A stretch of 40,390 nt of DNA from Candidatus Zixiibacteriota bacterium. GTDB lineage: Bacteria > Zixibacteria > MSB-5A5 > CAIYYT01. Positions 1 to 3,873 of this stretch are shown here, piece by piece. The DNA lies in the NCBI GenBank assembly GCA_020853795.1, contig JADYYF010000002.1:1-40390 (forward strand), given 5' to 3'. The translations under genes and the position numbers were made by a program. The first letter of the stretch is position 1; every line of letters begins with the position of its first letter. A model generated the notes under the pieces. That model was not told the origin of the DNA. It made no database searches and saw only the letters and a list, made by a program, of their open reading frames with translations.

Positions 1-608
1 AGGCGCTCGCCGACGGTCAGATCGATAGCCAAAGTTTGGAGATTGCGATTATTGACGCCGATCATCTCGGCGCCGATATCGAGAGCGATCTTGAGTTCGC
101 GCGGCGTGTGGACTTCAACCAGCGCGTCGAGGCCGCAAGCGCGGGCGGCGACGAGCAAATTCGCCAAGGCCTTCTGAGCGAGCACGGCGACGATCAGCAG
201 GACAGCCGCAGCGCCGGCAGCTTTGGCTTCGAGGATTTGCAGTTCGTCGACGATGAAGTCCTTGCGCAAAATCGGCAGCGGAATGCGCTCGGCAACCTGG
301 CGAAGATCGTCCAGCGATCCGGCGAAATGCGTGGGTTCGGTCAGGACGCTGACGGCGGCGGCACCTTCGCTCCAGTAGCGGCGCGCCAATTCAGCCGGGT
401 CGAGATCAACCTTGGTGCCGGCCGAGCTAGGAGAAGTGCGTTTGATCTCGAAGATGAATTGTTCACCAGGGCCGGAAAGCGCGGCACGGAAGGAGGGAGT
501 CGGGTGGCCGTTGCGATCGCGTAGTTGTTGCTCGATCTGGCGACGCCAGTCATCTCGCGAACGGACGGCGAGGTCGCGGCGAACGGCGGCAACAATTGAT
601 TCGAGCAT
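1..608 (-). CDS. trpC: Indole-3-glycerol phosphate synthase, C-terminal part missing at window edge
   Basis: Converts CdRP to indole-3-glycerol phosphate, the fourth step of tryptophan synthesis, in the cytoplasm. About 202 residues are visible; the family is about 255-270, so some 60 residues lie beyond the edge. The start reads MLESIVAAVRRDLAVRSRDD. The family motif EIKRTSPS (catalytic Lys) is near residue 55, VLTEPTHF near 90, RKDF with its catalytic Lys near 110, and GVNNRNL near 190. The ATG at 608 follows the trpD stop (609-611) with no gap, so translation is probably coupled. It is the last visible gene of trpE-G-D-C and should be controlled by the attenuator upstream of trpE. Identity is very secure. 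Confidence 0.95.
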   Translation of the reverse strand, partial: MLESIVAAVRRDLAVRSRDDWRRQIEQQLRDRNGHPTPSFRAALSGPGEQFIFEIKRTSPSSAGTKVDLDPAELARRYWSEGAAAVSVLTEPTHFAGSLDDLRQVAERIPLPILRKDFIVDELQILEAKAAGAAAVLLIVAVLAQKALANLLVAARACGLDALVEVHTPRELKIALDIGAEMIGVNNRNLQTLAIDLTVGER

Positions 609-1625
609 CTATTCTTCCTCCCGACTGGCGTGAATGTAGTCATCGAGAAGGCGCAAGGCGCGACCGGAACGGCGGGCATCAAGGGCCAGCTCCACGCCGA
701 CGGCCAAATTCTCGACATGGCCGGCAATGACAAGACCGAAGGCGGCGTTAAGATCGGTGGCGGACGCGAGGGGCGAGTCGGCGCCGGAGAGGATACCTCG
801 AAGCAGGCGAACGTTGTCATCTTTGTCACCACCGCGCAAGGCCGTAGCGGGAAAGCCGTTGTGAATATTGACGGGCAGTTCGATCTCGTCATCGAGGAGC
901 GCGCCGTCGAGCCAACGATAGCGGTGGTTGACACCAAGGGGGAGCAACTCATCGTAGCCGCGCGAATTGTGCAAAGTCGTGACGTTCAGTTCGGGGAGAT
1001 ATTCGCCGATGGCGGCGAGCATGGCAGCGGCCGGACGGGTGGCCGCGCCGATCATCTGATGCGTGGCGCGCGCAGGGTTGAGCAGCGGGCCGATCAGATT
1101 GAAGACGGTGCGAATGCCGAGTTCGCGCCGGACGCCGGCAACGCGCTTGGCGGCCGGATGATAGGCGGGCGCGAAGAGGAAGACGTAGCCGAGATCATCG
1201 AGCAATTGCGCAGCGCGGTCAGGGGACAGCTCGATGTCCGCGCCGGCGGCTTCGAGCAGGTCAGCCGATCCACAGGAAGAACTAACGGCACGGTTACCGT
1301 GCTTGGCGGTCGGCACGCCGCAGGCGGCTACGACCAGCGAGGCGGCGGTCGAGATGTTGAAGGTGCCGGTGCCATCGCCACCGGTGCCGCAACAATCGAA
1401 GACCAATGACTGGTGATGAGGAACGGCGAGGGCGCGACGGCGCAGGGCCGCGACGCAGCCGGCAATTTCCGCGACGGACTCGCCCTTGGCACGCAAGCCG
1501 ATCAGAAAGGCGGCGATCTGCGCCTCGGTTGCCTGGCCGTCCGCGACCGCGTCGATGAATTGCGCGGTCTCGGCGAAGGCGAGCGATTCCCGCTCGGCCA
1601 ATTTGGAGAGAACGTCTTTGATCAT
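609..1625 (-). CDS. trpD: Anthranilate phosphoribosyltransferase
   Basis: Transfers phosphoribose from PRPP to anthranilate, the second step of tryptophan synthesis. The protein is 338 residues, the usual family length. The PRPP/Mg motif CGTGGDG lies near residue 83, followed by NISTAAS, KHGNRAVSSSCGSADLLEA and TVFNLIGPLLNPA, all typical of TrpD. The start at 1625 (MIKDVLSKLAE) is chosen because the reading frame stays open upstream but that part is only the shadow of trpG. The ATG overlaps the trpG stop as ATGA, a common sign of translational coupling. It is a stand-alone TrpD, not fused to TrpG or TrpC. Confidence 0.96.
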   Translation of the reverse strand: MIKDVLSKLAERESLAFAETAQFIDAVADGQATEAQIAAFLIGLRAKGESVAEIAGCVAALRRRALAVPHHQSLVFDCCGTGGDGTGTFNISTAASLVVAACGVPTAKHGNRAVSSSCGSADLLEAAGADIELSPDRAAQLLDDLGYVFLFAPAYHPAAKRVAGVRRELGIRTVFNLIGPLLNPARATHQMIGAATRPAAAMLAAIGEYLPELNVTTLHNSRGYDELLPLGVNHRYRWLDGALLDDEIELPVNIHNGFPATALRGGDKDDNVRLLRGILSGADSPLASATDLNAAFGLVIAGHVENLAVGVELALDARRSGRALRLLDDYIHASREEE

Positions 1626-2191
1626 GCGGCCACGTCCAGGAAGTTGCTGATGATCTTCATGCCGTCGACGGTCAAGATCGACTCGGGGTGGAATTGGACG
1701 CCAAAGAGCCGCGCGGTCTTGTGCATGAGGCCCATGATTTCGCCGTCGGAGGTATAGGCGACGACTTCGAGCTGGGCGGGCAGGTTTTCCTCGGCGACGA
1801 CCAGCGAATGGTAGCGCGTCGCCTTGAAGGGGTTCGGCAGACCGGCAAAGACGCCCTTGCCGCGGTGGTAGATGTCGGAAGTTTTGCCGTGCACGAGGCG
1901 ATCGGCAGTGCGCACTTCCCCGCCAAAAGCCTCGGCGATGCACTGGTGACCGAGACAGACGCCGAGGATCGGAATCGTGGTGTGGAAGCGACGGATGACT
2001 TCCAGCGACAAGACGGCATCGCGCGGATGACCCGGCCCCGGCGAGATGACGATGCGCTCGGGCCGGAGATCGGCGATGACGGCGGGGGTGGCCGCGTCGG
2101 GGCGCACGACGGTGATGTCGCGGTCGCGTTCGCCGATGTACTGCACGAGGTTGTAGGTGAAAGAATCATAGTTGTCGATGAAGAGGATCAT
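1622..2191 (-). CDS. trpG: Anthranilate synthase component II, glutamine amidotransferase
   Basis: Releases ammonia from glutamine for anthranilate synthase; partner of TrpE. It has 189 residues, typical of a stand-alone class I amidotransferase subunit. Visible motifs are MILFIDNYDSFTYNLVQY at the N-terminus, the oxyanion motif SPGPGHP near 50, the nucleophile Cys79 in GVCLGHQ, and the His/Glu pair in FHPESI near the C-terminus. The start at 2191 has a good Shine-Dalgarno (GGAGG) and overlaps the trpE stop as ATGA. The same family also serves folate synthesis (PabA), but placement inside trpE-G-D-C makes the tryptophan role likely. Confidence 0.95.
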   Translation of the reverse strand: MILFIDNYDSFTYNLVQYIGERDRDITVVRPDAATPAVIADLRPERIVISPGPGHPRDAVLSLEVIRRFHTTIPILGVCLGHQCIAEAFGGEVRTADRLVHGKTSDIYHRGKGVFAGLPNPFKATRYHSLVVAEENLPAQLEVVAYTSDGEIMGLMHKTARLFGVQFHPESILTVDGMKIISNFLDVAA

Positions 2192-3672
2192 GTGAGTTCC
2201 TCCTCGGCGATACGGACGGCCTCGCGCAGGGCGGCGATTTTGTTGGCGGTTTCGAGGTATTCCTGCTCGGGGATGGAGTCGGCGACAATGCCGGCGCCGG
2301 CCTGCAAGCGCACGCAACCAGCTTGTTTGATGATGGTGCGGATGGTGATACACATATCGAGTTCGCCGGAGAGCGAGAAGTAGCCGACGGCGCCGGCGTA
2401 GGGGCCGCGGGCGTTGTGCTCCAATTCCGCGATGACCTCCATAGCGCGCAGTTTCGGGGCGCCGGAGACGGTTCCGGCGGGAAAGGCGGAGCGGAATAAA
2501 TCGAAGGCGGTGCAATCGGAACGGAGCGTGCCGGAGACGGTCGAAGTCAGGTGCATGACATGGGAGTACCGTTCGAGGTGCATCATGTCGGTTACGCGAA
2601 CTGAGCCGTAGTCGCAGACGCGGCCAAGGTCGTTGCGACCGAGATCGACGAGCATCACATGTTCGGCGCGTTCCTTGTCATTGTGGAGGAGTTCGTCGGC
2701 CAGGCGACGGTCATCGTCGATGGTACGGCCGCGACGACGCGTGCCGGCGATCGGGCGGACCATTGCCTGGCGTCCCTGCAATTTGACCATTGCCTCGGGG
2801 GAAGAGCCGATCAGCTCGATGTCGTCAAAGTCGAGATAGAACATGTACGGCGACGGATTCAGCATGCGCAGAGCGCGATAGATGTGAAAACCATCGGCGG
2901 CGGACGGGCGTTCTTCCCGCCGGGAAAGGACGGTTTGGAAGATATCGCCACGGAAGATGTGTTTTTGCGCAGTGCCGACCATCTGCTCGAATTGCGCCGG
3001 AGAGAAATTGGACAGGTAATCCTTCGACGGCGGCCGGGAGATCAGCGACGGTCGGGGAATCGGGCGCCGCAGCGCCGCGCGAATCTGCTCGAGTGCGACC
3101 GGCTCGGAACCGGCGGCCAGCTGCTCGCGCGCATTGTGCAGACGCAGCAAAGTCATCCGCCGCAGGAAGTGATCGAAGACCAGCAGGGTATCGACGAAGA
3201 AGAAACGACCAAGCGGCACAGCGGACGATGTGAGCAGCCCGCGCAGGCGCGGCTCAAAGAACTGAACGATTTCATAGGAGGCGAAGCCGACAAGGCCGCC
3301 AAGCAGCGGCAGGTCGCTGCGCCCGGAGCCGACAGTGAAGCGGCCCAGCAGTTGCCGGATTCCATCAAACGGCGCCGCGGCGCCATGAGGGATTGTCATC
3401 GTCTGCGCGGCCGATTTGATCACGGTGGCCTCCGCCGTCAGCTCAAGGGTGAGATGCGGATTGATACCGATGAAGGTGTAGCGACCGAGCGCAACCGGGT
3501 CTTCCGCCGATTCGAGTAGAAATCGCGCACCCAGGGGGCGGAGTTTCAAGAAGGCGGAGACCGGAGTTTCGAGGTCGCCGGGCAGATTGATTTCGTCGCA
3601 ACCCAGGTCGAGTTGGGCGGCGGCGCGAGCGTTGACAAGTGAGTCCAGGATGTTCATTTTTTTACCAGACAT
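2188..3672 (-). CDS. trpE: Anthranilate synthase component I
   Basis: Makes anthranilate from chorismate using ammonia from TrpG; the committed step of tryptophan synthesis. It has 494 residues, usual for TrpE. The N-terminal LLES motif (about 52-55) is the Trp-binding feedback site. The C-terminal chorismate-binding domain shows PIAGTRRRG, the DLGRNDLGR segment, HLTSTVSG and the signature GTVSGAPKLRAME. The chosen ATG (3672) sits one base after the U-tract of the attenuator terminator, with no separate ribosome site. An alternative ATG five codons later (3657, MNILDSLV) is possible. The retained LLES site suggests feedback inhibition in addition to attenuation. First structural gene of the operon. 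Confidence 0.95.
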   Translation of the reverse strand: MSGKKMNILDSLVNARAAAQLDLGCDEINLPGDLETPVSAFLKLRPLGARFLLESAEDPVALGRYTFIGINPHLTLELTAEATVIKSAAQTMTIPHGAAAPFDGIRQLLGRFTVGSGRSDLPLLGGLVGFASYEIVQFFEPRLRGLLTSSAVPLGRFFFVDTLLVFDHFLRRMTLLRLHNAREQLAAGSEPVALEQIRAALRRPIPRPSLISRPPSKDYLSNFSPAQFEQMVGTAQKHIFRGDIFQTVLSRREERPSAADGFHIYRALRMLNPSPYMFYLDFDDIELIGSSPEAMVKLQGRQAMVRPIAGTRRRGRTIDDDRRLADELLHNDKERAEHVMLVDLGRNDLGRVCDYGSVRVTDMMHLERYSHVMHLTSTVSGTLRSDCTAFDLFRSAFPAGTVSGAPKLRAMEVIAELEHNARGPYAGAVGYFSLSGELDMCITIRTIIKQAGCVRLQAGAGIVADSIPEQEYLETANKIAALREAVRIAEEELT

Positions 3673-3673
3673 G

Positions 3674-3706
3674 AAAAAAGCCCACCATCCTTGCGGACAG
3701 TGGGCT
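3674..3706 (-). terminator. trp attenuator: intrinsic terminator hairpin
   Basis: On the minus strand the arms AGCCCACUGUCC (3706-3695) and GGAUGGUGGGCU (3690-3679) pair over 12 bp with two G-U pairs and a GCAA (GNRA) tetraloop, followed directly by a U-tract (six U's including the last stem base). One base later the trpE ATG begins. This is a textbook intrinsic terminator inside the trp leader. Its 5' arm overlaps the antiterminator partner sequence (3703-3693), so the two structures exclude each other. Confidence 0.9.
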
Positions 3707-3758
3707 CAGTAGTCTTTCCGTCAGACTGAGGTTACACCGGTACGGCGCCACTATCCGC
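3693..3758 (-). promoter_or_regulatory. trp leader antiterminator pairing
   Basis: The RNA segment GCGGAUAGUGG (3758-3748, codons 27-30 of the leader ORF) is complementary over 11 bp, with one G-U pair, to CCACUGUCCGC (3703-3693), which contains most of the terminator 5' arm. Segment 3758-3748 begins 12 nt after the last Trp codon, where it should be just free of a ribosome stalled on the Trp codons. A ribosome that reaches the leader stop (3732) would instead mask it. A weaker competing hairpin, GCACCG with CGGUGU plus inner CGG/CCG, may form the 1:2 structure. This is read from complementarity; no folding was run. Confidence 0.85.
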
Positions 3759-3836
3759 GGTGCGGGCATACCACCACCAATAGTAGCCAAGCGTGAAGAC
3801 GCCGAAGAGAGCCGTGATCAGAGTAACTTTCATCAT
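3732..3836 (-). CDS. trpL: trp operon leader peptide
   Basis: A 34-residue ORF (ATG at 3836, second ATG at 3833, TAA at 3732) with the core YYWWWY: three consecutive TGG codons at 3779-3771 flanked by Tyr codons. Three Trp in a row in 34 residues, directly upstream of a terminator before trpE, is the hallmark of ribosome-mediated attenuation. Low charged tRNA-Trp would stall the ribosome on the Trp codons and free the antiterminator strand. The N-terminal half is hydrophobic (MKVTLITALFGVFTLG), so a small single-pass membrane protein cannot be excluded, but the RNA architecture argues for a leader. No Shine-Dalgarno is seen; the promoter lies so close that the ORF is probably leaderless. Confidence 0.88.
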   Translation of the reverse strand: MMKVTLITALFGVFTLGYYWWWYARTADSGAVPV

Positions 3837-3845
3837 GTGCAGTTG

Positions 3846-3873
3846 AATATAATCCCGTTTACGAATCTGTCAA
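3846..3873 (-). promoter_or_regulatory. Promoter of the trp operon
   Basis: On the minus strand a perfect -35 box TTGACA (3873-3868), a 16-bp spacer and a -10 box TATATT (3851-3846, 5 of 6 matches to TATAAT). The expected transcription start, 7-8 bases later, falls within a few bases of the trpL ATG at 3836. No separate TrpR operator palindrome is evident. Confidence 0.8.

Follow-up and report, generated by a model that had tools for sequence, protein, structure and literature searches.

A predicted ribosome-mediated attenuator with tryptophan and tyrosine leader codons before trpE of a Zixibacteria genome, and its relatives across the phylum

Introduction

The E. coli trp leader, trpL (RF00513), unites tandem Trp codons, alternative 1:2, 2:3 and 3:4 hairpins and a U-tracted terminator before trpE, all of which are also present at the locus described here, whose leader, however, is longer, has no Shine-Dalgarno sequence, would be translated from a leaderless start and carries Tyr codons on both sides of its Trp run. 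Leaders with codons for several products of their own operon are familiar from thrL (Thr, Ile) and ilvL (Ile, Val, Leu), which belong to the Thr and branched-chain pathways and do not combine Trp with Tyr. The trp attenuators of Corynebacterium and Streptomyces, which come from a different phylum than that of our locus, likewise place double or triple UGG codons, a terminator and an antiterminator before the trp operon, and no conserved structures were seen before tyrosine operons in Actinobacteria (PMC1262725). A known leaderless start, such as the one that we infer here, is that of S. meliloti trpL, the leader mRNA of which begins with the trpL ATG, although this leader has 14 residues, contains no Tyr block and heads trpE(G) only (PMC7298713).

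More than one kind of aromatic codon is found, as at our locus, in the C. glutamicum aroR leader, in which Phe-Tyr-Phe precedes the DAHP synthase gene aroF; this leader, however, heads another operon, has no reported Trp codons and responds to Phe (PMC4046766, PMC11802643), while Tyr supply is without effect despite the Tyr codon (PMC11802643). Attenuators have also been proposed before tyrA-containing aromatic supraoperons, one of which adjoins the Desulfovibrio vulgaris trp operon; these differ from the present case in being database predictions, with no leader codons given in the text consulted (PMC1173090). A survey published in 2010 considered leader-peptide attenuators to be known only in Proteobacteria and Actinobacteria, and itself added his leaders of Firmicutes (PMC2965389).

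An earlier description of such leaders (in Zixibacteria or Acidobacteria, with Tyr codons, or before supraoperons) was not found in the open-access literature, and older or closed work may exist. The class of mechanism is already known; what is new, as far as searched, is its occurrence in these phyla and the correspondence of leader codons to operon content. Leader-peptide attenuators thereby appear as conserved across an uncultured phylum and present in others too, and their natural variants (a fused operon under a Tyr+Trp leader, split operons under leaders of single specificity, and a leader that seemingly lost its Trp codons along with the trp genes) offer a ready means of testing how the codons of a leader track the genes of its operon. 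Should Tyr indeed be sensed, a single attenuator would balance two branches of chorismate metabolism.

Results and Discussion

Anatomy of the locus

The window, i.e., the whole stretch of DNA analysed (40,390 nt), is the entire contig C2 of a Zixibacteria MAG (G000), which bears out the candidate-phylum origin assumed in the initial annotation of this DNA. All the elements of the switch are on the minus strand (the strand had been left out of that annotation), between secG (4331-3963, minus), the terminator of which (3938-3911, minus) precedes the attenuator promoter, and trpE, encoding anthranilate synthase component I (2188..3672, minus; Pfam PF00425 and PF04715). Downstream, also on the minus strand, follow trpG (glutamine amidotransferase, 1592..2191) and trpD (anthranilate phosphoribosyltransferase, 618..1625), both with approximate ends as delimited by tblastn, and trpC (indole-3-glycerol phosphate synthase, 3..608; PF00218), which is cut by the contig end. 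In relatives, trpE begins with GTG, TTG or ATG at the position that corresponds to the window's in-frame ATG at 3657, and not to the ATG at 3672, so that trpE probably starts at 3657.

The promoter had been given as TTGACA-N16-TATATT and is indeed there, at 3873-3846 of the minus strand (TTGACA at 3873-3868, a 16 nt spacer, TATATT at 3851-3846), with 11 of 12 positions agreeing with the consensus; judging by its position, transcription is expected to start near 3839, 1-3 nt before the leader AUG. The leader peptide ORF (MMKVTLITALFGVFTLGYYWWWYARTADSGAVPV; 3836-3732, minus) is short and contains, as originally described, 34 codons and three tandem TGG codons for a product of the operon, which form part of a regulatory codon block, Tyr-Tyr-Trp-Trp-Trp-Tyr (codons 18-23; 3768..3785, minus).

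Three mutually exclusive hairpins are available to the leader RNA, with helix energies of -24.8 (1:2), -28.8 (2:3) and -22.8 (3:4) kcal/mol, and the fold of the entire leader is 4.7 SD better than that of dinucleotide shuffles. Region 1 (3779..3787, minus) is the outer 5' arm of hairpin 1:2 and pairs with 3755-3747, while the inner stem joins 3777-3772 with 3762-3757; this hairpin, which was absent from the initial annotation, competes with the other pairings and sequesters the Tyr/Trp codons. Region 2 (GCGGAUAGUGG; 3758-3748, minus) can pair with either region 1 or region 3 and encodes A-D-S-G, the D-S-G of which resembles a protein motif and is in fact RNA region 2 (GAUAGUGG). Region 3 (CCACUGUCCGC; 3703-3693, minus) is the 3' arm of the antiterminator and is shared with the 5' arm of the terminator. 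The antiterminator (11 bp, GCGGAUAGUGG with CCACUGUCCGC) begins exactly 12 nt past the last Trp codon, precisely as had been claimed, and its pairing was matched by only 2 of 300 spacer shuffles. The intrinsic terminator 3:4 (stem 3707-3678, U-tract to 3674, minus), which precedes the first structural gene, itself a trp gene, has the GNRA-type cap (GCAA) and the U-tract ascribed to it, the stem, however, being of 13 pairs and not 12; its placement one base before trpE holds for the ATG at 3672, and not for the likelier start at 3657.

The effect of ribosome position was modelled by letting a stalled ribosome hide 14 nt counted from the first base of the A-site codon. With stalls at codons 18, 20, 22 and 23, region 2 is free and the antiterminator is predicted to form before region 4 exists (-24.7 to -30.3 kcal/mol), and with a stall at codon 25 or later it is lost (-13.2 kcal/mol or weaker), so that, in this model, the Tyr-Tyr-Trp-Trp-Trp-Tyr block sits where stalling should switch the operon on. 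Once region 4 has been made, most stalled states of the model favour the terminator at equilibrium, and the stall model thus depends on the order of folding.

Based on this anatomy and its alternative helices, as well as on the conservation, covariation and match between leader codons and gene content described below, the locus is very probably a ribosome-mediated transcription attenuator heading the trp operon, as had been proposed, with Trp as its main signal. RNA polymerase starting at the predicted site would leave the AUG so close to the 5' end that a ribosome could load there without a Shine-Dalgarno sequence. With ample charged tRNA, the ribosome would reach the stop codon, either it or hairpin 1:2 would occupy region 2, and the terminator (3:4) would form ahead of trpE; a ribosome stalled on codons 18-23 would instead mask region 1, whereupon region 2 would pair with region 3 and transcription would continue. 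Tyr is the probable second signal, for reasons that lie in the operons of the relatives.

Conservation and covariation across the phylum

Across 133 genomes of the phylum, a search for trpE returned two kinds of this gene. Where the window's type was found with upstream DNA, a W-rich leader and a terminator were present at 18 of 18 loci (G030 is cut by a contig end), and the RNA model located further attenuators in two genomes (G110 and G119), so that the arrangement is present in all 20 of the Zixibacteria genomes that have this trpE type with DNA visible upstream of it. Such recurrence before trpE in every one of these relatives makes the arrangement more than a product of chance. None of the 42 loci with the other trpE type has a clear attenuator, and three genomes (G041, G103 and G104) carry both kinds. 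At one locus of the other type (L024, in G014), a WSWRW frame and a terminator are seen ~310 to 180 nt upstream of trpE, which is possibly an independent attenuator; as a W-rich ORF with a terminator about 30 nt on, it was counted as no clear case.

The initial annotation had suggested aligning the DNA upstream of trpE among related genomes. The Trp codons are conserved in relatives, and in an alignment of 22 attenuators (20 from Zixibacteria and 2 from outside) both the terminator and the antiterminator covary: 5 of 9 antiterminator pairs and 10 of 13 terminator pairs have changed on both sides, and neither covariation score was reached by any of 500 shuffles, a control that can be passed through relatedness alone. 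Sliding the partners, however, lowers the share of paired cells from 92% to at most 58% in the one helix and from 90% to at most 52% in the other.

Two genomes of one family (G111 and G109) have a tandem arrangement, in which two complete trp attenuators stand in series before trpE (L061:1079-1480 and L064:1038-1440). Two leader ORFs in series on one operon are also a feature of Salmonella mgtCBR, where the ORFs sense other signals, whereas both leaders of each Zixibacteria pair carry Trp codons (PMC3641672). G106 also has a WWW leader (MSSIAHNSIFTVSNQWWWCTCHWRWVITPSCP) with a terminator (L119, G106:C468:15817-15933), here preceding a trpB-like gene that is not part of the trp operon.

Tyrosine codons and operon content

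Besides trpE leaders, the RNA model matches leaders of free-standing operons that comprise aroH (for chorismate mutase), aroF (for DAHP synthase) and tyrA. The Tyr leaders of the aroH operons are MNMYAHHIGFQPGYGSRYYRYYYYYNRQNDGGLAEFSSMR in G105, MMLHSRSYYYYCIYTRSHRAEGGSAAS in G102 (where no aroF was seen between aroH and tyrA) and MNNPVYMAALTFLLSYVLYYYSYRRTRESGLVPV in G077; further model-matched leaders precede aroH-operon genes in G022 and in G087, the latter with one, early, Trp codon, and Tyr-rich leader ORFs are found in G055 and G068 too. The antiterminator pairing of five Tyr leaders was matched by at most 11 of 500 shuffles.

In fused operons, aroH-aroF-tyrA directly follows trpEGDCFBA and lacks a separate leader, and the trp leader that heads the whole has 2-5 Tyr codons; a leader thus carries codons for two amino acids, both of which are made by genes of the operon. 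In trp operons without aroH and tyrA, the leader has a total of 0-3 Tyr codons, of which 0-2 lie close to the Trp run. The association of Tyr-codon number with operon content gave p=0.0007 (Mann-Whitney, all Tyr codons) and p=0.0023 with one value per genus, both from small and related samples, and in the two families that hold both operon kinds the observed split was the best of 100. Two Tyr-rich leaders from outside the phylum (L034 and L036), collected before their operons were known, both turned out to head trpEGDCFBA-aroH-aroF-tyrA.

The split operons of G077 illustrate how such a leader might change: Tyr is absent from its trp leader (CNWWRWPMD), and Trp from its aroH leader. The latter aligns without gaps over about 140 nt with the Tyr+Trp leader of G018 (z=13.8; YYYSYRR vs YFWWYRR) and does not align with the trp leader of G077 itself (z=0.6), and the G077 aroF is 80% identical to the aroF of the fused operon in G018. 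The simplest reading of these similarities is that the aroH operon of G077 descends from a fused operon, from which the trp genes and the Trp codons of the leader were lost together.

What follows trpC in the window's own operon has to be judged from relatives, as the contig ends within that gene. G004, a member of the window's family, has the gene order trpB-trpA-aroH-aroF-tyrA, and the window's trp operon is likewise expected to be fused with aroH-aroF-tyrA. The absence of aroH from both G000 and G001 was considered as a counterexample and dropped, since trpB, too, was not found in either of these bins, and the rest of the operon would therefore be on unbinned DNA.

Because the operon runs into aroH-aroF-tyrA in relatives, we consider it reasonably probable that Tyr is a second signal besides Trp in the window's leader. 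The suggestion that its Tyr codons could modulate stalling has thus gained comparative support, while still being unproven. A tentative and less probable alternative is that Trp alone is sensed and that the Tyr codons, which in the window also form the region 1 arm of hairpin 1:2, are kept as bases of this 5' arm. Tyr codons do pair with region 2 in G000, G001, G067, G111b and G120, YWWWY is present in G041 and G104, where no aroH was found, and Tyr elicits no response from the aroR leader of C. glutamicum, despite a Tyr codon in it (PMC11802643). G105, however, builds the same arm from R-N-W, so Tyr is not needed for the pairing, and sensing of Trp alone explains neither the Tyr codon that follows the Trp run, nor the association of Tyr codons with operon content, nor the occurrence of Tyr leaders before aroH operons.

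That leader codons follow operon content suggests that one switch of this kind can read two amino acids. We lean, with some confidence, towards a joint reading in which the Zixibacteria leaders are one phylum-wide family, many of them leaderless, with leader codons rewritten as operons fuse or split (Tyr+Trp over the fused operon, a single specificity over its parts, tandem doubling in some genomes, and relatives in Aminicenantes and other phyla), and in which the YYWWWY of the window would be a true two-amino-acid sensor.

Translation start and the nature of the leader peptide

TTGACA and a 16-nt spacer were found in all the leaders compared, save the second of each tandem pair. The ATG of the window's leader lies 9 nt past the -10 box, and in 11 leaders altogether (G000, G001, G018, G010, G008, G067, G120, G119 and G077, plus the Tyr leaders of G077 and G022) this distance is 6-9 nt, without a Shine-Dalgarno sequence. 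In nine other leaders, the ATG is 20-27 nt from the -10 box and a Shine-Dalgarno-like sequence is present; one genus (G041, G103 and G104) has distances of 52-72 nt, and the Tyr leader of G102 one of 36 nt, both without a Shine-Dalgarno-like sequence. Given the promoter positions, the simplest reading is that the short-distance leaders are leaderless, with translation beginning at the 5' end of the transcript, and a near-zero 5' UTR would account for the missing Shine-Dalgarno sequence of the window's leader, which had been remarked upon before and is confirmed here.

The N-terminal half of the leader (3783-3836 in the window) is hydrophobic, as it also is in G001, G018, G010 and G067, and this, together with S. 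meliloti peTrpL, which acts in trans (PMC7298713), might be taken to mean that the ORF encodes a small membrane protein acting in trans, with the hairpins merely terminating its own transcript. Such an explanation is very unlikely: the leaders of other families are not hydrophobic and yet come with the same RNA, the Trp/Tyr content of the leaders tracks the downstream genes, and the peptide has no Pfam or NCBIfam match. Moreover, between G000 and G001, which belong to the same genus, no base differs in codons 17-23 (G-YYWWWY) and 28-29, whereas the remainder of the leader has drifted (12 amino-acid-changing and 9 silent codon differences). By this comparison, the conserved part of the leader is the codon block plus region 2, not the peptide overall. 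A protein kept while the pairing is lost, which had been named as the outcome that would speak against attenuation, is the reverse of what G001 displays, with its codon block held, its peptide drifting and its hairpins kept. The leader peptide may have an additional role in trans, besides attenuation.

The Rfam scan of the window gave no family, riboswitch or T-box at the gathering cut-off, with the Trp_leader model (RF00513) scoring 14.8 bits (gathering cut-off 41) at exactly 3759-3672, and the scan of 12 loci of the other trpE type likewise gave no family at cut-off. TrpR (PF01371) is encoded in 12 of the 133 genomes, among which are neither G000 nor any other attenuator genome. In other bacteria, TRAP, T-box and TnaC-like systems control terminators that precede trp-related genes, and it is most improbable that one of these, including an arrest peptide sensing free tryptophan, governs the terminator here, since no Rfam T-box is present in the window, tandem cognate codons and the 1:2, 2:3, 3:4 geometry are what the sensing of tRNA charge requires, and the peptide outside the codon block drifts, unlike arrest peptides.

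Related leaders beyond the Zixibacteria

Two further phyla have trpE leaders that the RNA model matches: a small one, and the one to which an Aminicenantes genome belongs, where the leaders contain FNRYYWWYR and RYAWWWYASL. Weak matches at L124, L126, L128, L129 and L216 were set aside, none having a Trp/Tyr leader of the window's kind. In a Spirochaetes MAG (L048), a leader ending in ILWWWFGR, accompanied by hairpins and T-runs, lies 243 to 73 nt upstream of trpE; it was left out of the count, as the sole RNA-model match in that genome lies elsewhere. At four archaea-labelled trpE loci (L040, L041, L043 and L045), a shared short frame, MSIPWSW, lies ~100 nt upstream of trpE, without a terminator at any of the four.

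Two further leaders carry other codons. L219 (G276:C148:31079-31229) has the leader MTTYYWCRYWCCGYDMSCRC and a strong terminator before the gene of a pyridoxal-phosphate enzyme resembling cysteine synthase, and is possibly a cysteine attenuator. L220 (G297:C50:5513-5635), in a genome that shares its phylum with the Aminicenantes genome, also looks like a cysteine attenuator: its leader has six Cys codons in a row (MPCCCCCCRPTRPAGG) and is followed by a terminator and a PAPS reductase gene.
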